In this document: piece after piece, positions 5,166-58,820 of the stretch | How positions within the stretch are numbered: the stretch's first letter is position 1 | Layout of the letters: each line of letters opens with the position of its first letter | Assembly: GCF_027460265.1 (NCBI RefSeq) | Contig: NZ_JAPZBC010000001.1 | Span: 4,037,501-4,101,500, forward strand | Origin: Streptomyces sp. WMMC940 | Lineage (GTDB): Bacteria > Actinomycetota > Actinomycetes > Streptomycetales > Streptomycetaceae | Length of the DNA stretch: 64,000 bases | Reading direction: 5' to 3' | Translations under genes and position numbers: made by a program | The notes under the pieces: model-generated | The model's input: only the letters and a program-made list of their open reading frames with translations | Database searches by the model: none | Told to the model about the DNA's origin: nothing

Positions 5166-6719
5166 CTATCGGCGGATGCCGGTGGCGAACGGCAGCGTGT
5201 TCACAAAGGCCCGGTGGTGCTCGCGGTCGCACCACTCCAGCTTCAGGTACGACTTGCCCGCCGAGGCCCTGATCGTGCGCTTGTCCCTGGCCAGGGCCTC
5301 GGGCGTACGCGACGACACAGTGATGTACCCGACGAGGTTGACGCCTGCCGCGCCGCTGGCGAGATCTTCACCCCGCTGGTCGAGTCGGCCGTGTGCGGCG
5401 ATGTCGCGGGGGTCGACGGTGCGGTTCATCTTCGCGGCGCGACTGGCCTCGGCCTCGTCGTTGGTCTTCTCGGTGAGCATGCGCTCGATGGCGACCTCCG
5501 TGGGTTCGAGGTCCATGCAGACGGCCACGGTGCGGATCACGTCCGGGGTGTGGACGAGCAGCGGGGCGAGGAAGTTGACGCCGACGGGGGTCATCGGCCA
5601 CTCCTTCACCCAGGCCGTGGCGTGGCACCAGGGGGCACGGGTGGCGGACTCGCGGGTCTTGGCCTGGAGGTAGGTGGGTTCCACCGCGTCGAGTTCGGCG
5701 GGCCAGGCGTTGCGCTTGGTCATGGCCTGGATGTGGTCGATGGGGTGGTCCGGGTCGTACATGGAGTGCACGAGGGAGGCGAGCCGGGCCTGGCCGAGCG
5801 GCTGGCGGACGCGGATGTCGGCCTCGGCGAGGCGGGCGCAGATGTCGGTCAGTTCGCGCGCCATGACGACGGCGAGGCCGGCGTCCTTGTCGAGGCGGCC
5901 GGCGCCGGTGGCCTGGCGGGCGGCGCGGGCCATGGTGTGGGCCTCGGCGGCCAGCTCGCGGCTGTAGTGCATACAGGCGACCAGGTAGGCGCGGTGCTGC
6001 TCGCTGGAGGTGGAGACCATCGACTGGAGCTGGTCGTAGGACTGCTGGAGCCAGACGGGGGAGCCCGCCTCGCCGCGCTGGGCGACGTCTTTGGCGTGGG
6101 CGTCGGGGTCGGCGGGCAGGGTGCGGGCGAGCATTTGAAGCCGCGTCACGAAACCGTCGCCGTTGGCGACGTGCTTCAGCAGCGTGCCGAAACGGTCCAC
6201 CAGGGCTTCCTGGTCCTCGCTGTCGCGCAGTCCGACACCGGGGCCCTCGATCTCGATGGCTGCGGTGACGGTGCGCCGGTCGGCGTGGAGCAGTACGGCG
6301 ATCTCGTCGGGGCCGAAGGGGGCGGCGAGCCAGTTGATGCGGCCGATGCCGGGCGGGGGGCCGATCTCCACCTCGCGGCCGTCGACGCGGGTGCCGGCCT
6401 CCATGGCGCCGGAGCGGTAGACGGTGCCCTGGCGCAGTGTGCGCTTGTAGCTGCGGTTGATCTCGTACCAGCGGTAGAAGGTGCGCTGCTTGTACGGCAT
6501 GTACACGGCGGCCAGCGCGAGCAGGGGGAAGCCCGTGAGCAGCACGATGCGCAGGGACAGGACGGGCACCAGCAGTCCGCTCATCATGCCGAGGAACGCG
6601 CCGGCGATGATCAGGACGATCTCGCCCGTCTCGCGGTTCTTGCCGATGATCGCGTTCGGCCGGGCCCGGCCGATGAGATACGTGCGGCGGGGCGCGATGG
6701 CCGGGGACTGCGTCGTCAA
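5166..6719 (-). CDS. SCO6880-family membrane protein of a type IV secretion-like system
   Basis: A 517-residue protein resembling the SCO6880/PrgI-like family found with actinobacterial VirB4 ATPases. Two hydrophobic segments near residues 34-50 and 55-72 are followed by a basic stretch (YKRTLRQG) and a long soluble domain without nucleotide-binding motifs. The soluble part is plausibly equivalent to the N-terminal half of VirB4, split off as its own polypeptide. Its ATG overlaps the stop of the upstream TrbL-like gene in an ATGA arrangement, implying translational coupling. Function in the complex is inferred from family and position. Confidence 0.72.
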   Translation of the reverse strand: MTTQSPAIAPRRTYLIGRARPNAIIGKNRETGEIVLIIAGAFLGMMSGLLVPVLSLRIVLLTGFPLLALAAVYMPYKQRTFYRWYEINRSYKRTLRQGTVYRSGAMEAGTRVDGREVEIGPPPGIGRINWLAAPFGPDEIAVLLHADRRTVTAAIEIEGPGVGLRDSEDQEALVDRFGTLLKHVANGDGFVTRLQMLARTLPADPDAHAKDVAQRGEAGSPVWLQQSYDQLQSMVSTSSEQHRAYLVACMHYSRELAAEAHTMARAARQATGAGRLDKDAGLAVVMARELTDICARLAEADIRVRQPLGQARLASLVHSMYDPDHPIDHIQAMTKRNAWPAELDAVEPTYLQAKTRESATRAPWCHATAWVKEWPMTPVGVNFLAPLLVHTPDVIRTVAVCMDLEPTEVAIERMLTEKTNDEAEASRAAKMNRTVDPRDIAAHGRLDQRGEDLASGAAGVNLVGYITVSSRTPEALARDKRTIRASAGKSYLKLEWCDREHHRAFVNTLPFATGIRR

Positions 6720-8086
6720 CGCCCTCCACCTCCTGTGCTTCCTGTGCTCGTGCCGGTGGTGCTGCCGGAGTTCCTGCGGTGGCTGTGCGGGGTGCTGCCC
6801 GGGCCTCCGCTACGGGGCGGAGGCGCGGCGGAGGGGACGGATCCGCCGCCCCCGCCCGCGGCACCCGTTCCGGCCCCGCGTGCGCTGTGGGCGGCCACTC
6901 CGCCGGCGACCGGGCTCGGGGCGCTGCCGCCTCCCGAGCCGCCCCCGCCCTGCTGGTGGGTGCGGCTGCTGTGGGTCTTGATGCCCTGCGAGACGAGGGC
7001 GGCGGGTGAACTGATGACGGCGGCGGCCTTGTTCTCGGCGCCGTTCTGGAGTCGGTTGTTGCGGGACGCGGCGATCTCGTCGCCGAACCCGGGAACGAAA
7101 CGGTAGATCATCGCAGACGCGAAGATCGCGAGCAGGATGATGGCGAGTCCCGTGACGACGGCGGAGAACGAGTCCGGACCGTCGTCCGCGGACAGTGCCC
7201 CGGCGAGGCCGAGGACGATGACGATGACCGGCTTGACCAGGATCACCGCGATCATGATCCCGGCCCAGCGGCGGACGTGGCCCCACATGTTCTTGTCCAC
7301 GAGCCCCGAGTACACGACGACGCCGAGCAGGGCGCCGACGTACAGCAGGACGGCGCGGAGGAACAGCTCCAGGTAGAGGACGCCGGCGGCGACGATCGTC
7401 ACCAGTGACACGACGATCAGCATGATCGGCCCGCCGCCGATGTCGTCGCCCTTCTGCAGCGCCTCCTTGAACCCGCCGAAGAACACGTCGGTCTGGCCGC
7501 CGGTGCCCTGGGCGATCACGTCGGTGATCGAGTCGGTCGCGGAGACGAGTGTGTAGAGGATCAGCGGGGTGAAGGCGGAGGCGAGGACCGTGAGCCAGAG
7601 GAAGCCGATGGCCTCGGAGACGGCGGTGGTGAGAGGGACGCCGCGGATGGCGCGCTTGGCGACCGCCAGCAGCCAGAGGAGGAGGGTGAGGAAGGTGGCG
7701 GCGGCGAAGACCACGGCGTACTGGCCGAGGAAGGTGGTGTTGGTGAAGTCCACTTCGGCGGTGGACTTCACGGCCTTGGAGAGGGTGTCCACGACCCAGG
7801 CCGCGGCGTCGGCGCACCCGCGGGCGAGGGAGGAGAGGGGGTCGAGGGCGCCGGCGGGGTCGGGGGATACCGAGCTGCCCGGGTCGCCCCCGCGTTCCCC
7901 CTCTTCGCAGTAGCGCTTCGCATGACCGCTGAGGTAGCGGCAGGCCTCGACGTCGCCGCTGGGTGAGGGCGTCGGAGTGGGCGCCGCGGCGACCCGTCCT
8001 GCGAAGAGGAAGGTGGCGGCCTGCAAGCCTGTGAGCAGCGCCATGGCCGAACCGGCACGGGTAAGGAACCGAGAGCTACCGGGCAT
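6716..8086 (-). CDS. TrbL/VirB6-like polytopic membrane protein
   Basis: A 456-residue protein with a cleavable-looking signal sequence (hydrophobic residues about 14-34, then AAAPTPTP), a short exported segment with paired cysteines, and five to seven membrane helices between about residues 120 and 325. A Gly/Ser/Pro/His-rich low-complexity cytoplasmic tail follows. This is the layout of TrbL/VirB6 inner-membrane channel proteins of type IV systems. Its ATG overlaps the end of the VirB8-like gene by 11 bp, and its stop overlaps the SCO6880-family start. The low-complexity tail (GGGGSGGGS-type) is a likely site of length variation. Confidence 0.75.
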   Translation of the reverse strand: MPGSSRFLTRAGSAMALLTGLQAATFLFAGRVAAAPTPTPSPSGDVEACRYLSGHAKRYCEEGERGGDPGSSVSPDPAGALDPLSSLARGCADAAAWVVDTLSKAVKSTAEVDFTNTTFLGQYAVVFAAATFLTLLLWLLAVAKRAIRGVPLTTAVSEAIGFLWLTVLASAFTPLILYTLVSATDSITDVIAQGTGGQTDVFFGGFKEALQKGDDIGGGPIMLIVVSLVTIVAAGVLYLELFLRAVLLYVGALLGVVVYSGLVDKNMWGHVRRWAGIMIAVILVKPVIVIVLGLAGALSADDGPDSFSAVVTGLAIILLAIFASAMIYRFVPGFGDEIAASRNNRLQNGAENKAAAVISSPAALVSQGIKTHSSRTHQQGGGGSGGGSAPSPVAGGVAAHSARGAGTGAAGGGGGSVPSAAPPPRSGGPGSTPHSHRRNSGSTTGTSTGSTGGGGR

Positions 8087-52175: not shown

Positions 52176-52613
52176 CTACGGACCGGCGGGGCCGGCCGCT
52201 TCTCCGTTCCTGACCGGCCTGGTGTGGATCTTCGCGATGCAGGCCGGGATGGCGGATCCGTGGTCGTGGTCGCGGGCCCGGTACGCACTGGGGCTCTCGC
52301 CGACCAGCTCGGTGAACCGCGAGCTGAAGGAGCCCAGCGAGGTGCAGCCGACCTCCATGCAGACCTCCGTCACGGACAGGTCGCCGCGCCGCAGCAGCGC
52401 CTTGGCCCGCTCGATCCGGCGGGTCATGAGATAGCTGTAGGGCGTCTCGCCGTAGGCGGCCCGGAAACTGCGCGAGAAGTGCCCCGCCGACATCAGGGCG
52501 ATGCGTGCGAGCGCCGGTACGTCCAGGGGTTGGGCGTAGTCGCGGTCCATCGCGTCACGGGCCCGGCGCAGCCTGACGAGGTCGGAGAGGGGTACACGGG
52601 ACACAGTGGACAC
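52176..52613 (-). CDS. AraC-family transcriptional regulator (DNA-binding domain only)
   Basis: A 145-residue regulator that is little more than an AraC DNA-binding domain: two helix-turn-helix motifs ('LDVPALARIALMSAGHFSRSFRAAYGETPYSYLMTRRIERAK' and 'LSVTEVCMEVGCTSLGSFSSRFTELVGESPSAYR'). No N-terminal ligand-binding domain is present, as in MarA/SoxS types. It starts at GTG 52613. The Tn7-like element is inserted 97 bp upstream of this start and may have separated it from part of its original promoter region. Confidence 0.9.
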   Translation of the reverse strand: MSTVSRVPLSDLVRLRRARDAMDRDYAQPLDVPALARIALMSAGHFSRSFRAAYGETPYSYLMTRRIERAKALLRRGDLSVTEVCMEVGCTSLGSFSSRFTELVGESPSAYRARDHDHGSAIPACIAKIHTRPVRNGEAAGPAGP

Positions 52614-52709: not shown

Positions 52710-52714
52710 CCGCC
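52710..52714. repeat. Left target-site duplication (ccgcc)
   Basis: Five bases ccgcc directly abut the left TG end of the Tn7-like element and are repeated exactly at 58289-58293 after its right CA end. A 5-bp duplication is the norm for Tn7/Tn5053-type transposition. Confidence 0.88.
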
Positions 52715-52725
52715 TGACCCGTCTC
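52715..52725 (+). repeat. Left terminal inverted repeat of the transposon
   Basis: tgacccgtctc; the right end reads tgacctgtctc in reverse complement. Similarity continues inward with a one-base gap (gaagt shared, 52731-52735), so this is also the outermost TnsB-like site, L1. Confidence 0.85.
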
Positions 52726-52765
52726 AGTAGAAGTGGGCCATCCTGAGGTTCCGACCTGCGGTGGT

Positions 52766-52812
52766 TCAGGTTGACTGAGACGGCGAGGGGCGGCTTGTCT
52801 CAGTCAACCTGA
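52766..52812. repeat. Perfect 16-bp inverted repeat in the left end (TnsB-like sites L2/L3, possible terminator)
   Basis: tcaggttgactgagac (52766-52781) and its exact complement (52797-52812) flank a 15-nt spacer. Each arm matches the internal right-end repeats (cagattga..gag), so they are probably TnsB-binding sites in opposite orientation. The same hairpin covers the stop codon of the DUF6228-like gene and could terminate the tns operon transcript. Confidence 0.8.
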
Positions 52813-53267
52813 CCATCGATGGCTCCGGCGAGGAAGTGCCGGACATCGGATGCCAGGGAGGCCATCTGCTCTCCGCCCTCCAGCCAGGTGGTCACTGAGG
52901 CGCTCCATCCGCCGGCGGCGCTGGGCCACGGGCGCAACGTCCAGGTCAGCCCGACGTGGCCACCCGATCGGAAGACCGCCGAGACCATCAGGTCTTTGTC
53001 GTCCGTCCGCCAGCTGCGTTCGCCGTCCCATCCGCGGTAGTCGGCGGCCAGTTCTTCCAGGAACGGGGCGAGGTCGCTGTCCCAGATCCAGGCCACTACC
53101 TCGTTGGCGCGGGCAGTCAGGCCTGGAGCCCAGAGTTCGACGGCGTAGTGCACGGAGTCGGTGTCGAAGCTGAACCGGTCACAAAACCTCACACCGACCG
53201 ATGGGTTCTCCTGGCAGTGGATAGTCAGGCCGGGCTTGTCGTCGATGTCGCTGTCAGCGGAGGTCAT
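52800..53267 (-). CDS. DUF6228-like protein, fifth gene of the transposon
   Basis: A 155-residue acidic, soluble, beta-rich protein. The block 'FLEELAADYRGWDGERSWRTDD' (residues about 69-90), followed by 'GHVGLTWTLRPW', is what I associate with DUF6228 proteins, small actinobacterial proteins of unknown function often found singly. It starts inside the end of tniQ (14-bp overlap), so it is co-translated with the transposition genes, in the slot where Tn7 has target-selection genes. Its stop codon falls in the L3 repeat. It may be cargo, an accessory transposition factor or an immunity-type protein; the sequence does not decide. Confidence 0.68.
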   Translation of the reverse strand: MTSADSDIDDKPGLTIHCQENPSVGVRFCDRFSFDTDSVHYAVELWAPGLTARANEVVAWIWDSDLAPFLEELAADYRGWDGERSWRTDDKDLMVSAVFRSGGHVGLTWTLRPWPSAAGGWSASVTTWLEGGEQMASLASDVRHFLAGAIDGQVD

Positions 53268-54249
53268 GGGGGAACGCTAGGCCAGCATCGCGTTCAACGT
53301 CATCGGGATTCTCCCGCCCGGCATCGCTCTCGACCTGGGCTGACAGGGACAGAGCCGTGCCGGTGCGGCCGTCGGCCGGGTGTTCTGCAGCCTCTTGGAT
53401 GGTGTCTGCGATGACGCGGAGTTGGTGGACGAACCAGGGCTTGGCCGCCGTGCGTAGGGGTCTTTCATTGGGGAGTCGCCGTGTGAACTCGGCATGGAAG
53501 GCCCGGAAGTCGTCTTCGCTGCTGGACATGGCCAGGCTGCGCCAGTGCGGGGCGGCGTAGAGGACCATGGTTTTGACGATCTCCGGATAGACCGCGGCAT
53601 AGCGTTTGGGATCCCAGGGCCGGACGCTGCGCTCAGGGCGAGGCTGGAGCCGGGCGAGGCGGTGCGAGCGTTCGCTGATCCGGTAGCCGTGCCGCAAGAG
53701 GGTGTGCCAGAAGCGGGAGCTCTGTTCGTAGCAGGTGTTGAGCACGTGGGGGCCATAGCGGCGAAGGAGCCGGTAGTGGCGCCGCTGGGCGGCGACGATC
53801 TCCGGTAGATCGGCGAGGTCGAACTGGTAGGCGGGGGCTTCGACGGCCCGGCCGATCCAGAGGCGGTGGGGGAGGCAGACCTGGTCGTGGTGTTTGGACA
53901 TCCAGATCATGACGCCTTGGTCCTGGTTGCCCGTCCTGCGGGCGACGCACCGGCGGCAGGCCCACCGGGGAGTCGCTTCGAAGGATCCCTTCGGGACGTT
54001 CCATGCCTGTGGCTCCCAGCGAGGGATCGCGTACTCGATCGCGGTGCGGGTTTGTCCGCTGAGGACGCTGAGCTGGCCGATCGGATCCAGACGGGAGGCC
54101 AGCCAGTGGGAGGGCCGCTGGATGCGCTGGATGGGCATCGCGTTCGCTGCGGCGAGCCGGGCCAGGAACGAGGCCTCGGTCTCCTGCGGGAAGGGCTTGA
54201 GCGGACGTGGCAGCGGGCGGAAGACGACGGGTTCGAAGCGCGCGCTCAT
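53254..54249 (-). CDS. tniQ: TniQ-family target-selection protein
   Basis: A 331-residue TniQ. The N-terminal domain begins with the family's 'RPLPRPLKPFPQETEASFLARLAAANAM' (P-x-P-x-E-S-x-x-S/A-x-L-x-R-L pattern). A zinc-finger-like set follows: Cys98-x2-Cys101 ('WACRRC') and Cys125-x2-His128 ('VCLPHRLW'). TniQ proteins connect target DNA to the TnsC filament; Tn7 TnsD is a long member. This one has a modest C-terminal extension (about 200 residues after the zinc site) that could bind a specific site. ATG 54249 overlaps the tnsC stop (ATGA). Confidence 0.88.
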   Translation of the reverse strand: MSARFEPVVFRPLPRPLKPFPQETEASFLARLAAANAMPIQRIQRPSHWLASRLDPIGQLSVLSGQTRTAIEYAIPRWEPQAWNVPKGSFEATPRWACRRCVARRTGNQDQGVMIWMSKHHDQVCLPHRLWIGRAVEAPAYQFDLADLPEIVAAQRRHYRLLRRYGPHVLNTCYEQSSRFWHTLLRHGYRISERSHRLARLQPRPERSVRPWDPKRYAAVYPEIVKTMVLYAAPHWRSLAMSSSEDDFRAFHAEFTRRLPNERPLRTAAKPWFVHQLRVIADTIQEAAEHPADGRTGTALSLSAQVESDAGRENPDDVERDAGLAFPHDLR

Positions 54250-55292
54250 CCGGCTGCCCTGCGTGGTTCGGGCGGGGAGTCGGATTGGCTGTTGTGGTCG
54301 ATCCGGATGCCCCGCAAAGCAGCTTTGGTGATGCGCTCGCCGCCGTCGAGGATGGCGGAGATCGCCGCAGCCCGGATCAGGTGGGAGAGGCTTCCGATCA
54401 TGCCGCCGGTCCGCTGGTGCAGGTATTTCGCGAGCTGAACCAGGGTTCCGGTCTGATGGTGGTGCAGGCGGAGGGTCTGCTCCAGGGAAGCGACCAGCGC
54501 CTGCCACTCGGCGTTGAGAGGGAAGGCGCCGGTGCGGACCAGGATGCAGCGGCCTCCCAGCTGCTTGCCGCGAATCCCGGTGAACAGCCCGCACTTCTCC
54601 ACGTTGATCCCGGCATAGACGAACGTCGCAGGCAGGTGCTCGGTGAAGTACTTCAGATGATCGGAGAGGTCCTCGCCGGCGGTGGTCGCGTGGTTGAGCA
54701 GGTGGATCTCGTCGACCAGCACCAGCTCCGTGCGGGCCTCGATCATCACCTGGCAGACGGCACTGGTGACGTCGATGGTGTTGTGCCGCGGGCTGATCAC
54801 GGGCAGGCCGAGGAACCGGGCGAACTCCATCGCGAGTTTGCGCGGGGATCCCTTGGGCGGGGCGGTGATGTAGACCACCGGGATGCGGTCACTGCCCGGG
54901 TAACGCTGCCGGATGCGGAGCTCATGGGTGCGGCCGAGCTGCTTGAGTGCGGTGGTTTTCCCCGTCGTCCACTCCCCCGAGACGATCATCCCGCGGCGGG
55001 CGCCGTGCTCGCGCTGGTTCAGCAGGGTCAGCAGCCGCCCCTGGTGGGCGATCTCCCTGACCGTGGAGGTGTGCACGACCTGGAGCTCGGAGTGGTAGGC
55101 GATGCGGGCCTCGTCGTAGGCCTCCCGCAGCTGCGGGGACAAGGCCTGCCGCTGCTGCTCGGGCAGCAGCTCGAAGACGGCCGGATCGGCCTCCACGAAG
55201 CGCCGCCAGCCCTCCAGACGGGTGGAGGGATCGGTCCAGTCATCGGGTAGCCCCGTTTCCTCTCCGCCCGGAGCCTCGGCGTTCACCACCAC
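54246..55292 (-). CDS. tnsC: TnsC/TniB-like AAA+ ATPase
   Basis: A 348-residue AAA+ regulator of transposition. Walker A is 'GEWTTGKTT' (G106...K112-T113), Walker B 'ELVLVDEIHLL' (Asp194-Glu195), and 'VYAGINVEKCGLF' sits at the sensor I position. TnsC/TniB proteins form ATP-dependent filaments on target DNA, recruit transposase and give target immunity. The start is GTG 55292, or GTG 55289 one codon on, overlapping the end of tnsB by up to 10 bp. The C-terminal 'QRTGGMIGSLSHLIRAAAISAI' block is typical of TniB. Confidence 0.92.
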   Translation of the reverse strand: MVVNAEAPGGEETGLPDDWTDPSTRLEGWRRFVEADPAVFELLPEQQRQALSPQLREAYDEARIAYHSELQVVHTSTVREIAHQGRLLTLLNQREHGARRGMIVSGEWTTGKTTALKQLGRTHELRIRQRYPGSDRIPVVYITAPPKGSPRKLAMEFARFLGLPVISPRHNTIDVTSAVCQVMIEARTELVLVDEIHLLNHATTAGEDLSDHLKYFTEHLPATFVYAGINVEKCGLFTGIRGKQLGGRCILVRTGAFPLNAEWQALVASLEQTLRLHHHQTGTLVQLAKYLHQRTGGMIGSLSHLIRAAAISAILDGGERITKAALRGIRIDHNSQSDSPPEPRRAAG

Positions 55293-57379
55293 TTCTCGGC
55301 CTCCTTGCGCGCGTCGAAGATCTCCAGCGGGACGACGTCGGCAAGCTCGCCAACGTCTTCGTGTGCCGGTTCCGCCTGTGGTTCCGGCTCTGACGCGGGT
55401 GCCGGCCGGGGCCAGGCGGGTTCGCTGGTGGCCCGGGTGCGGGCGGCGACCTTGCGGTTGCGTCGCCGGGCTGACCGGCCCGGCGTCTCTGCCCGACGGC
55501 CAGGCTCGTGATCGGGCCCGTCCGCGGCCCGGTCCAGCAGTTCCGCGGCAACCTGCGCGACCGCCTCCTCGTTCGGCCTGCGTTGCCCGCGTTCAGCCAG
55601 GATCTGGTGGGCCCGATCGAAGACCAGCTCGCCCATCGGGACGGGCGAGGTGCGCAGATGGCGCCAGATCGCGGTGATCCAGCCCGTGCCGTGGTGGTCG
55701 CGTACCCAGACACGGGAGATGTCGTAGGGGTCGTAATGGACTTCCCAGAGCTTGCCGCCCGGACCGGCTCCCGAGGACTGGCCCCGGAAAGGGCCGAGCG
55801 CCGGAGCGTCGTAAGTGCGGTTGTTGATCCGCACCCCGCTGCGGCCGACGACCCGCCACTCACGGGGCATGAGTTGGATGTACTCCTGCGGGCTGAGCGC
55901 AATGGACACGTATCCAGCTGCCGACACCAGCGCGGCGTACTTCTCGTTCGGGCTCAGCGGACGGTCTGGCATCAGCGGATCCCGAAGACCGTCATGCGGC
56001 CTGACCTGCCAGACGGCGACAACCCATTCCTGCAAGAGTTCCTGGAGCTCGTGGATGGACCAGGCCGCCTGCGCGGCCGGGTCCTTGCCCCGCATCTCCG
56101 CACTGCGGCCGGTGTAGCCGGTCACGTACTGAGCGAACATCGTCGCCACCGACCCCAGCGTCCGCTCGATGTGCGGCTTGTCGGTCGGGGTGTCCGGGTG
56201 CGCGGGCTGGAAGGAGATCCCCAGGTGCCGACAGGCATTGCGGAAGTTGTCCGAGATGAACGCCTTGCCGCGGTCACTGACCACCGTCTCCGGGACGATC
56301 ACAGGCTTCGCGGCGGCCTTGGCCAGCCGCTCGTCCAGCGGCAGCAGCGAGGCATAGGGCAGCACCGACCGCGACATGCGCAACGCGTCCGACCAGCCGG
56401 GCCGCATCGGCTCCGGTGTCATCGCCCGGGCCAGCAGCAGCGCGGCGTCCACCGCCTTCGTCGACGGCCGCAGCACCACCGCCGCCAGCGTCCTGGTCGC
56501 CAGATCCACCAGCCCGGTCAGCTCGCAGCGGTCCACCGTCCCGTCATCGTGGACGACCATCACGTCCAGCGGAGTCGAGTCGATCTCCATCACCTCACCC
56601 GGCCGGGCCGCGGTCAGCAGCCCGAACATCCGCTTCGGCTGCTTGCCCACCGACCTGCGCGTGCGAGCCGACCCCAGCAGGTGCCGCCCCGTGGAAACCG
56701 CCTCCAGCAGCCGGTAGAACGTCGCCCTGGACGGCATCGGGACCTCTCCGGTGCCGTGCTCGGCCGCCAGGCGGCGCTCGACCTGGCGCCGCAGCACCTG
56801 CGCGGACACCGTGGCCTCGCTGGTCCGGCTGTTCACGACCCGCTCGATCGCGGACACCACCCGCGGATCGGCCCGGCCCGTGCCGGTCGCGGGCTTGAGC
56901 AGCCGCCGGTCCACCAGACCCGCCACCCCCTCACGCTCGAAACGGGCGCGCAGCCGCTGGAGGGTGCTCAGGCCTACCTCCTCACCGGCCTCGTGCAGTT
57001 CGGCGAGCTTGGTCAGCTCGCGCTGACGCACCGAGTGCACCTCCGGGTCGTACTCGGCCCGCACCGTTGTGCCCGGATCAGCGTCCGGGCGGCCCGTCAT
57101 CAGCTCGGTCAGATGCCGCTGCCACCACCGGGCCCGCTCCACCACCTCCTCCGGCAGCCCGTCAAGCACCCCCTCCTCGGGCAGCGGCGGGCGAGCCGGG
57201 CCGGTGCTGAGCACGGTGAAGCCATCGGAGGCGAGCAGATGTCCCAGCAGCACGACGCTCGCGGCCTGGGCGTCATCGACCAGGCGTACCGATGTGCCGT
57301 GCAGGGCGGCGACGATGTGCTCACGCCCGTCGTAACGAACCCGGTCACCCAGCGACAGCAGCTTCGGGCGCGTCGGCAT
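55283..57379 (-). CDS. tnsB: TnsB/TniA-like DDE transposase
   Basis: A 698-residue transposase of the Mu/TnsB/TniA retroviral-integrase-fold family. An N-terminal helical DNA-binding region with helix-turn-helix segments ('LSTLQRLRARFEREGVAGLVDRR' and 'PSRATFYRLLEAVSTGRH') leads to the catalytic core with Asp267 ('EVMEIDSTPLDV'), Asp369 ('TVVSDRGKAF') and Glu405 ('DKPHIERTLGS'), a D,D(35)E spacing. A Mu-C-like beta-barrel ('RVVGRSGVRINNRTYDAP') follows, then a Lys/Arg- and Pro-rich tail likely to contact TnsC. It joins the 3' ends to target DNA. ATG 57379 lies 35 bp inside tnsA. Confidence 0.95.
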   Translation of the reverse strand: MPTRPKLLSLGDRVRYDGREHIVAALHGTSVRLVDDAQAASVVLLGHLLASDGFTVLSTGPARPPLPEEGVLDGLPEEVVERARWWQRHLTELMTGRPDADPGTTVRAEYDPEVHSVRQRELTKLAELHEAGEEVGLSTLQRLRARFEREGVAGLVDRRLLKPATGTGRADPRVVSAIERVVNSRTSEATVSAQVLRRQVERRLAAEHGTGEVPMPSRATFYRLLEAVSTGRHLLGSARTRRSVGKQPKRMFGLLTAARPGEVMEIDSTPLDVMVVHDDGTVDRCELTGLVDLATRTLAAVVLRPSTKAVDAALLLARAMTPEPMRPGWSDALRMSRSVLPYASLLPLDERLAKAAAKPVIVPETVVSDRGKAFISDNFRNACRHLGISFQPAHPDTPTDKPHIERTLGSVATMFAQYVTGYTGRSAEMRGKDPAAQAAWSIHELQELLQEWVVAVWQVRPHDGLRDPLMPDRPLSPNEKYAALVSAAGYVSIALSPQEYIQLMPREWRVVGRSGVRINNRTYDAPALGPFRGQSSGAGPGGKLWEVHYDPYDISRVWVRDHHGTGWITAIWRHLRTSPVPMGELVFDRAHQILAERGQRRPNEEAVAQVAAELLDRAADGPDHEPGRRAETPGRSARRRNRKVAARTRATSEPAWPRPAPASEPEPQAEPAHEDVGELADVVPLEIFDARKEAEKWW

Positions 57380-58124
57380 CCCAGCCCACCTCCCCCACGG
57401 TCGTGGGCGCCAGCCGCACCCGCGACGCCGCCGACAAACGCCCCGTTCGCATCTCCGCAGTCAGCTCGCGGCGCCAGAGCAGGTGATAGAGCACCGGCAG
57501 CACCGCGAGCGGGTCACCGACGGCCCGCGCCCCCGCCAGCAGCCCCAGCGGCTCGCGGAACACCGCCAGCAGAGCGCCGGCCACCGGCTCCCGCCGCACC
57601 CTGGGATGCCGGTAACCCGACAACCACCGCAGATTCGCCGCCAGCACCGGATCCAGAACACCGACCCGTTCGTAGTCCCAGCCGACCCGGGCGCACGCCT
57701 CAGCCGTGGCCTCGAACTTCGCCGCGTCCTCAGGCTCGATCCGCTCATCCGGGCGCACGTCCACCGCCACGGCCGTGCCGTCCTGGCGACGTACGAAGTA
57801 GTCCGGCGTGTGCCGGATCCGACGACCCTGGCCGCCGTACCGCCACGACAACTGGAACGGCTGCGAGGCCACCGCCACCACGTCCGGGTCGGCATCCAGC
57901 CGCATCAGGTGCCCGAGTTCCACCCACGACTCGTAGCCCACCAGGTCGGAGCAGGTCGCGGCCCAGTACCAGCCCGAGAAGTTCCGCTGCCCCCGGTACG
58001 ACGGGAACGCACGCACCTGCCCGGCCGCCTCGAACCGGTCTCGCCACATCACCTCAAGCGGTCCACCGCGCGACTCACCCCGGGCATCGACGTACTCCAG
58101 CCAGAAGTCCTCCGCCTCCACCAC
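57345..58124 (-). CDS. tnsA: TnsA-like endonuclease subunit
   Basis: A 259-residue TnsA, which cuts the 5' strands so that the element leaves by cut-and-paste. The restriction-endonuclease-like core shows Glu65 ('GYESWVEL'), Asp108 ('IRHTPDYFVRR') and 'AVAVDVRPDERI' (Asp122-x-Arg124). Classical TnsA has Q/E-x-Lys at the last position, so the catalytic lysine is replaced by arginine here. The C-terminal 'WLSGYRHPRV' and helical domain probably bind TnsB/TnsC. It starts at GTG 58124, 59 bp from the innermost right-end repeat. Confidence 0.87.
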   Translation of the reverse strand: MVEAEDFWLEYVDARGESRGGPLEVMWRDRFEAAGQVRAFPSYRGQRNFSGWYWAATCSDLVGYESWVELGHLMRLDADPDVVAVASQPFQLSWRYGGQGRRIRHTPDYFVRRQDGTAVAVDVRPDERIEPEDAAKFEATAEACARVGWDYERVGVLDPVLAANLRWLSGYRHPRVRREPVAGALLAVFREPLGLLAGARAVGDPLAVLPVLYHLLWRRELTAEMRTGRLSAASRVRLAPTTVGEVGWDADAPEAAVAG

Positions 58125-58182
58125 GCACCCCCACTCGGCGCTGACCAGGTGGAACGACCGTAGGGCCCGGAGGAGGCCCGTA

Positions 58183-58288
58183 CCTCAGATTGATCGAGGC
58201 GCAGCGGCAGATGCCCGAGATTGAGCGAGACGCGCGACCGGATGCCTCACGAAGACCGGGACTGCCTCAACTTCGCAGAGACAGGTCA
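58183..58288 (+). repeat. Right transposon end with three TnsB-site-like direct repeats
   Basis: R1 cctcagattgatcgaggc (58183-58200), R2 cccgagattgagcgagac (58214-58231) and terminal R3 cctcaacttcgcagagac (58265-58282) point the same way, each ending gag(a/g)c. R3 continues to the TG/CA terminus aggtca. R1 and R2 also match the left-end arms tcaggttgactgagac. Several same-orientation TnsB sites in one end are characteristic of Tn7-like elements. The 5' region of tnsA and its promoter lie between R1 and the gene. Confidence 0.82.
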
Positions 58289-58293
58289 CCGCC
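58289..58293. repeat. Right target-site duplication (ccgcc)
   Basis: Exact copy of 52710-52714, directly after the right CA terminus. Confidence 0.88.
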
Positions 58294-58330: not shown

Positions 58331-58358
58331 ACTTTTGCAAGCACGTGCTTGCAAAAGT
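58331..58358. promoter_or_regulatory. Perfect 28-bp palindrome, probable operator of the XRE regulator
   Basis: acttttgcaagcac is followed directly by its exact reverse complement, with no spacer, 27 bp before the XRE start codon. The length, perfection and AT-content stand out in this GC-rich DNA. Position over the expected promoter argues for autoregulation by the XRE protein. The transposon's right end is only 42 bp upstream. Confidence 0.85.
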
Positions 58359-58385: not shown

Positions 58386-58820
58386 ATGGCATCCCTCAAC
58401 GTCGGCAGTCTCGGTGACTATCTCCGCGAGCAGCGGCGCAACGCGCAGCTGTCGCTGCGGCAGCTCGCCGACGCCGCCGGGGTGTCCAATCCGTACCTGA
58501 GCCAGATCGAGCGCGGGCTGCGCAAGCCGAGCGCCGAGGTGCTGCAGCAGGTCGCCAAGGCGCTGCGGATCTCGGCCGAGACGCTGTACGTCCGGGCCGG
58601 GATCCTCGACGAGCGCGAACGGGACGAGCTGGAGACGCGGGCGGTCATCCTGGCCGATCCCTCGATCAACGAGAGGCAGAAGCAGGTGCTGCTGCAGATC
58701 TACGAATCGTTCCGCAAGGAGAACGGCTTCGGCGCCGATACGGATAAGGACACCTCTGAGGACGGCCCCCGCACGGCCGCAGGAAGTGGTGCCGACCAAC
58801 CCTCATCACCCGAAGTCTGA
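58386..58820 (+). CDS. XRE-family transcriptional regulator
   Basis: A 144-residue protein with an N-terminal Cro/CI helix-turn-helix ('LGDYLREQRRNAQLSLRQLADAAGVSNPYLSQIERGLRKPSAEVLQQVAKALRI', residues about 9-62), a short helical middle and an acidic Ser/Asp-rich tail. It precedes the HbhA-like gene by 34 bp and the DUF2516 gene; Rv0474-Rv0475-Rv0476 in M. tuberculosis is the same order, so the linkage is ancient in actinobacteria. It probably binds the 28-bp palindrome at its own promoter. Confidence 0.92.
   Translation: MASLNVGSLGDYLREQRRNAQLSLRQLADAAGVSNPYLSQIERGLRKPSAEVLQQVAKALRISAETLYVRAGILDERERDELETRAVILADPSINERQKQVLLQIYESFRKENGFGADTDKDTSEDGPRTAAGSGADQPSSPEV

Follow-up and report, generated by a model that had tools for sequence, protein, structure and literature searches.

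A Tn7-like transposon of Streptomyces and its insertion next to a presumed XRE operator

Tn7 proper inserts downstream of glmS by means of the target selector TnsD and carries TnsE as a second selector, whereas elements of the Tn5053/Tn402 family lack TnsA and transpose replicatively with the help of a resolvase. To our knowledge, how sites are chosen by elements with a single, short TniQ selector is poorly understood. According to Benler et al. 2021 (PMC8649781), the Actinobacteria-dominated clade 2 of Tn7-like transposons had no experimentally characterized member as of 2021, includes branches without tnsA and, where resolvases are present, contains almost exclusively tyrosine resolvases. 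Here we analyze a TnsA-bearing Tn7-like element in a 64,000-nt stretch of the genome of Streptomyces sp. WMMC940 (the whole stretch is hereafter called the window, and feature coordinates refer to it). Comparison with related loci makes it probable that this element is an intact cut-and-paste transposon, the TniQ of which steers insertion to a short interval upstream of a unique, presumed XRE operator.

Insertion beside a recurring, presumed chromosomal operator

Relatives of the element were collected by scanning genomes; from the 133 stretches obtained, we retained the 79 best loci that were distinct. Eighteen of these (L032-L049), all from Streptomyces, encode a TnsB at least 68% identical to that of the window and are referred to below as the close clade. 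In 13 of the 18 loci, a gene for an XRE-family regulator is located just outside the right (tnsA-side) end of the element, in a single orientation and with its start 86-115 bp away, and the interval between that end and the palindrome TTGCAAGCnnnnGCTTGCAA is 36-65 bp, also in constant orientation. The palindrome has the form TTGCAAGC-4-GCTTGCAA (one base off in L032, where the first base is C), is positioned 49-51 bp from the XRE start and presumably represents the regulator's own operator. The same XRE arrangement was found in two further genomes (L135 and L136), and a remnant is present in L145; L137 and L138 were left uncounted, their flanks repeating those of L035 and L037.

The site is typically present once per genome. 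Of 61 congeneric genomes (that of WMMC940 included), 47 contain the pattern TTGCAAGCNNNYGCTTGCAA exactly once, the other 14 lack it, and none of the 61 contains its reversed control. The XRE-gene region itself was strongly matched in all 25 genomes of the genus that were searched. Furthermore, a TnsA-like gene lies within 3 kb of the palindrome in at least eight of the 61 genomes (G000, G003, G007, G009, G021, G041, G048 and G065), of which G048 carries a remnant and G003 and G041 contain elements of other lineages.

The close-clade insertions are flanked by different 5-bp duplications, namely, GGCGG (equivalent to CCGCC in the window), CCGGC, CCGGG, CACCG, TCTGC and ACCTC. Because both the duplications and the distances to the operator differ, these insertions are best regarded as separate events, and random insertion is ruled out by the recurrence of one site with differing duplications. 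Moreover, a second lineage, with TnsB about 47-48% identical to that of the window and TniQ (in L080 and L090) belonging to another clade, is inserted at the same operator, at distances of 45-49 bp and with perfect duplications of its own (CTGGG in L080, GCCGA in L090 and TCCGG in L166; of two candidate left ends of L166 with TCCGG, the one with a matching terminal repeat was used). Across the 19 insertions beside the operator (the window, 13 close-clade loci, L135, L136, L080, L090 and L166), the spacing between right end and palindrome ranges from 36 to 65 bp, with a median of 46 bp. The first-pass annotation, made from the sequence of the window without database searches, had missed this site-specificity: judging from the recurrent positions, insertion is evidently targeted to a conserved chromosomal operator.

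Among the close-clade loci, L048 lies at a contig end, and L036, L042 and L043 apparently abut the left end of another element, with the XRE gene located further out in L042 and L043. This apparent stacking of elements, near the XRE gene in the latter two loci, suggests that an earlier insertion does not prevent further use of the site.

The mechanism that we propose combines these observations with analogies to Tn7. TnsA and TnsB would cut both strands at each end of the element, the TnsC ATPase would bridge the transposase to the target, and the single TniQ would select that target, reading either the palindrome or a protein bound there. The right end would enter first, approximately 36-65 bp upstream of the palindromic operator, leaving the operator and the XRE gene intact, and the XRE site would be a safe chromosomal site for this element, as glmS is for Tn7. 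The spacing would fit the footprint of a transposition complex between selector and insertion point, similar to the 50-60 bp that separate protospacer and insertion in CRISPR-associated transposons, as reported by Benler et al. 2021 (PMC8649781).

Structure, boundaries and recency of the element

The boundaries, the CCGCC duplications and the TGACC(C/T)GTCTC ends proposed in the first-pass annotation were all recovered (Table 1). The two 11-bp terminal inverted repeats are identical at 10 of 11 bases. The boundaries also have support from outside the window: megablast matches end exactly at the right boundary (query base 5574) in 7 of 13 plasmid records (H3, H5-H9 and H11), and in 7 of the 16 close-clade loci examined, the window included, both ends were recognized and are flanked by a perfect 5-bp duplication whose sequence varies from locus to locus. 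Neither the termini without an element nor elements ending at other positions were seen in relatives. Two of the earlier claims did not hold. The element is not unusually compact, given that the seven delimited siblings span 5,053 to 10,134 bp and an Arthrobacter relative only 4,967 bp, and its TGACC ends are not distinctive, since the family as a whole shows variations on a pattern close to TGTCC.GTCTCA. The possibility that such ends mark a separate group was discarded because siblings bear TGTCC or TGACG ends. A TnsB search of the WMMC940 genome identified a single copy of the element.

Table 1. Coordinates of the element, its genes and its surroundings in the window
Feature	Coordinates	Strand	Remarks
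Whole Tn7-like element	52715..58288	-	5,574 bp; minus-strand operon; tnsA lies towards the right end
Target-site duplication CCGCC, left copy	52710..52714		
Target-site duplication CCGCC, right copy	58289..58293		
Left terminal inverted repeat TGACCCGTCTC	52715..52725	+	
Right terminal inverted repeat TGACCTGTCTC	58278..58288	-	minus-strand reading
16-bp perfect inverted repeat	52766..52812		arms 52766-52781 and 52797-52812; putatively two TnsB-binding sites facing each other
Putative subterminal TnsB-binding repeats, right end	58182..58232	-	about 58212-58232 and 58182-58201; by eye
tnsA	57345..58124	-	259 aa; NCBIfam TnsA_like_Actin
tnsB	55283..57379	-	698 aa; D267/D369/E405
tnsC	54246..55292	-	348 aa; TniB/AAA ATPase
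tniQ	53254..54249	-	331 aa; predicted to select the target; zinc ligands C98, C101, C125, H128
Cargo gene	52800..53267	-	155 aa; DUF6228
Palindrome ACTTTTGCAAGCACGTGCTTGCAAAAGT	58331..58358		presumed XRE operator and presumed attachment site; 20-bp core starts 46 bp from right end
XRE-family regulator gene	58386..58820	+	downstream of operator
AraC-family gene	52176..52613	-	left neighbour (host)

The perfect 16-bp inverted repeat near the left end (at about bases 52-98 from that end) is shared with L037 and L044, versions of 13-17 bp are present in L046, L047 and the Arthrobacter element L071, and overall an inverted pair at about bases 48-102 was found in 6 of the 13 left ends examined. By contrast, the TnsB sites known from Tn7 are all direct. 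A TGACCtGCGGTG-like stretch at about bases 37-50 also appears conserved, by eye, in the left ends of the window, L037, L044, L046, L047 and L071.

As first reported, the open reading frames of tnsA, tnsB, tnsC and tniQ are intact on the minus strand and retain the expected motifs. TnsB is a DDE transposase with a Mu-type C-terminal domain, the catalytic triad of which (D267/D369/E405) aligns with D273/D361/E396 of Tn7 TnsB. TnsC belongs to the TniB/AAA_22 families and contains the Walker motifs GEWTTGKT and LVLVDE. TnsA scores 292 bits against the NCBIfam model NF033179 (TnsA_like_Actin; cut-off 110). The catalytic residues of Tn7 TnsA, a PD-(D/E)xK nuclease, are E63, D114 and K132; among 73 rows of the family, the Asp is present in all 73 and the Glu in 72, and Arg replaces Lys at the position of K132 in all 73. 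The TniQ residues C98, C101, C125 and H128 are invariant in alignment A1, which includes 37 homologues chosen from 74 TniQs, and 26 of these 37 match PF06527. The TniQ of the window itself has no Pfam match; in a fold comparison, three TniQ chains ranked at the top, weakly, and Foldseek with the TniQ model returned nothing at E <= 0.001.

No resolvase was found among the Pfam and NCBIfam matches of the five proteins of the element, and none of the five annotated genes encodes TnsE, leaving a single selector gene. Likewise, none of the five genes encodes a Cas protein and there was no Rfam match at gathering scores, although no dedicated search for CRISPR arrays was made. DUF6228-like genes recur in or near elements of the XRE clade (the window, L032, L035 and L043) and are possibly shared cargo.

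An empty site with a single CCGCC between the AraC and XRE genes had been predicted for related genomes. In G050, the closest genome found with the locus (flanks about 94% identical), the site is indeed unoccupied and the intergenic stretch from the AraC-like to the XRE-like gene is uninterrupted, but the bases at the junction are CCG-C rather than an exact CCGCC. The element is also missing from G015 (L007), where the junction is too diverged for base-by-base alignment. Because the nearest genome found with the locus has an unoccupied site, the element is taken to be a recent arrival, and we infer that transposition by TnsA and TnsB is cut-and-paste and still functional, in agreement with the original proposal of a recent, TnsA-bearing, probably cut-and-paste Tn7-like element.

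In G041, a related element is present in two copies that are 100% identical over 5,296 bp, one (L164, 3364-9383) near the XRE gene, on the largest contig and with the duplication CCGTG, and the other (L165, 3301-11023) on a 146-kb contig with ACCGC. Some 110 bp separate the former from the operator, and part of this interval may be a remnant of another element; the latter contains a nested insertion of about 1.7 kb. Two identical copies, each with its own duplication, show that members of the wider family have been mobile in the recent past. Identical TnsB proteins were also observed in several mycobacterial species (L060, L061, L062, L065 and L073), which points to recent spread between species.

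Other sites, exceptions and alternative explanations

Site groups follow the phylogeny of the transposition proteins. The 8 site groups require 7 changes on the TnsB tree and the 9 groups labelled on the TniQ tree require 8, in each case the minimum; none of 200 shuffles was as low in either case. The labels were assigned by the analyst, 36 of 76 and 32 of 69 rows, respectively, are unlabelled, and the clustering is increased by near-copies. Support for the XRE group in the TniQ tree is 86%. Rows L051, L069, L072 and L079 were dropped from the TnsB tree, and L043, L051, L057, L072, L099 and L108, as well as L040 (two stops) and L041 (two frames), from the TniQ tree. When TnsB was placed against Tn7, Tn402 and Mu using 35 chosen rows, the end branches, at 4.5-10 changes per column, were too long for placement.

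Two other branches have recognizable sites of their own. Six Streptomyces loci are inserted about 100 bp upstream of a gene that we take to be lon from its sequence, and 11-13 bp from a TCGCTnnnnGCGA box, presumably similar to ClgR sites. These loci account for 6 of the 8 rows of their TnsB clade, the other two, L088 and L103, being inserted at different places; one of the six, L101, has a recognizable target duplication. In the mycobacterial branch, the motif GTCACnGTGAC occurs 12 times in the 20 loci scanned, 10 of these within 160 bp outside the right end; a Kribbella locus scanned alongside has no such motif. The flanking genes differ among the mycobacterial loci, with unrelated genes beside the palindrome, and conservation is symmetric beyond the seed and extends little into the flanks, which suggests that the palindrome is what these sites share (the 10 sites were chosen by the seed, and the conservation outside it is the independent part). 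The sequence CGTCACnGTGACG is present in just 3-12 copies in each of eight mycobacterial genomes; the sites of L058, L068 and L070 deviate by a single base from the pattern used for the genome count, CGTCACNGTGACG, and are not captured by it.

Sites that appear to be dif-like, a TetR operator, CGATATATCG and other two-member sites are represented by two loci each and serve only as leads; in the TnsB tree, the two dif-like rows are not grouped in a single clade. The right flanks of L055 (Kribbella) and L071 (Arthrobacter) lie near TTGACATAATGTnnATTATCGGCG, which we presume to be dif-like.

Several observations speak against a single, strict rule of targeting. The XRE operator was absent beside the element or its fragment in all eight plasmid loci examined, of 13 records, and the plasmid copy L171 is inserted upstream of parA (7145-7201), as is the contig L038 of the close clade, upstream of a parA-type gene (about 7033-7091). 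Six of 16 mycobacterial flanks lack GTCACnGTGAC. Furthermore, a crude palindrome score is raised only in the XRE group, where values of at least 8 were obtained for 13 of 13 sites (the palindrome having first been seen in this group), compared with 2 of 9 mycobacterial sites, 0 of 6 lon sites (the end of L091 being misplaced), 4 of the 19 others (some of whose ends are unsure) and 7% of 1,300 random windows. General palindrome enrichment across all branches was scored in this way and not found. The case for the mycobacterial branch rests on recurrence of the motif instead. As to the plasmids, insertion of close relatives upstream of plasmid-type parA genes is possibly a second targeting mode, and the plasmid copies L172 and L173 lie 35-41 bp from a different palindrome, GATTCACAnnnTGTGAATC. 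We tentatively suggest, without placing the odds in its favour, that this actinobacterial Tn7-like branch as a whole uses palindromic operators of host regulators. Each TniQ lineage would read a palindrome of its own, or dock on the dimeric regulator bound to it, and two lineages would have converged on a single operator.

Alternatively, the target could be chosen through a host protein rather than by direct recognition of DNA by TniQ: TniQ or TnsC could dock on the operator-bound XRE regulator or another dimeric DNA-binding protein. Insertion of Tn5053-family elements at res sites with the help of a resolvase is a precedent, and palindromy is common to the sites of different branches: the XRE operator, GTCACnGTGAC in mycobacteria and GATTCACAnnnTGTGAATC beside two plasmid copies. 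However, the palindrome score is unraised at the lon sites and little raised at the others, and we consider this explanation unlikely, albeit worth keeping in view. It is very improbable that the insertions merely mark a hotspot of DNA structure or accessibility, such as open and bendable AT-rich promoter palindromes: insertions do fall between genes, and the operator looks more A+T-rich than the sequence around it, but there is one site per genome, orientation is fixed and the sites are branch-specific. Inheritance of one old insertion by the XRE gene throughout many Streptomyces, so that the shared position would not reflect targeting, is likewise very improbable, for although all 18 close-clade loci are from Streptomyces and the XRE region is strongly matched in every congeneric genome searched, it is largely refuted by the perfect duplications and distances that differ between members and is further contradicted by the unoccupied site in G050 and by the presence of a second TniQ/TnsB lineage beside this operator.

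With TniQ-directed insertion upstream of the XRE operator as the preferred explanation, the loci provide candidate natural pairs of selector and site (the XRE operator twice, the mycobacterial palindrome, lon and others), and selector swaps between them could reveal what TniQ reads. For gene placement in Streptomyces, it would likewise be useful to have a site that most of the sampled congeneric genomes contain once.

Comparison with known transposons

By its TnsB, its TnsC, its TniQ (identified by homology) and its inverted ends and 5-bp duplication, the element belongs to the Tn7-like transposons in the broad definition. It does not qualify as Tn7 proper or as a Tn5053-like element, and its gene content sets it apart from CRISPR-associated transposons. 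It resembles clade 2 of Benler et al. 2021 (PMC8649781) in host group and gene set, a likeness of description rather than a comparison of trees, and differs from branches of that clade in having tnsA and, in the window element, no detected resolvase. Its TnsA fits NF033179, a model that names a protein subfamily and carries no ends, target or mechanism.

With the Tn5053/Tn402 elements (tniABQR), it shares homologues of TniA, TniB and TniQ and the 5-bp duplications, and the preference of that family for plasmid res/par regions resembles the parA-side copies L171 and L038. It differs from them in the presence of TnsA, in the lack of a resolvase among its five annotated proteins and in its ends and target.

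From Tn7, the element differs in having one short TniQ and no TnsE, in its position upstream of the XRE gene instead of downstream of glmS, in a site that is a palindrome outside genes with looser spacing, in the inverted pair of putative TnsB sites at the left end and in the Arg that replaces Lys132 of TnsA; between its TnsB and H25, a plasmid protein that bears the name Tn7 TnsB, identity is about 25% over 75% of the length. Nevertheless, the two have in common the TnsA and TnsB transposase, the TnsC ATPase, a selector of the TniQ/TnsD type, 5-bp duplications and a safe chromosomal site, and in both the tnsA-side end faces the recognized site.
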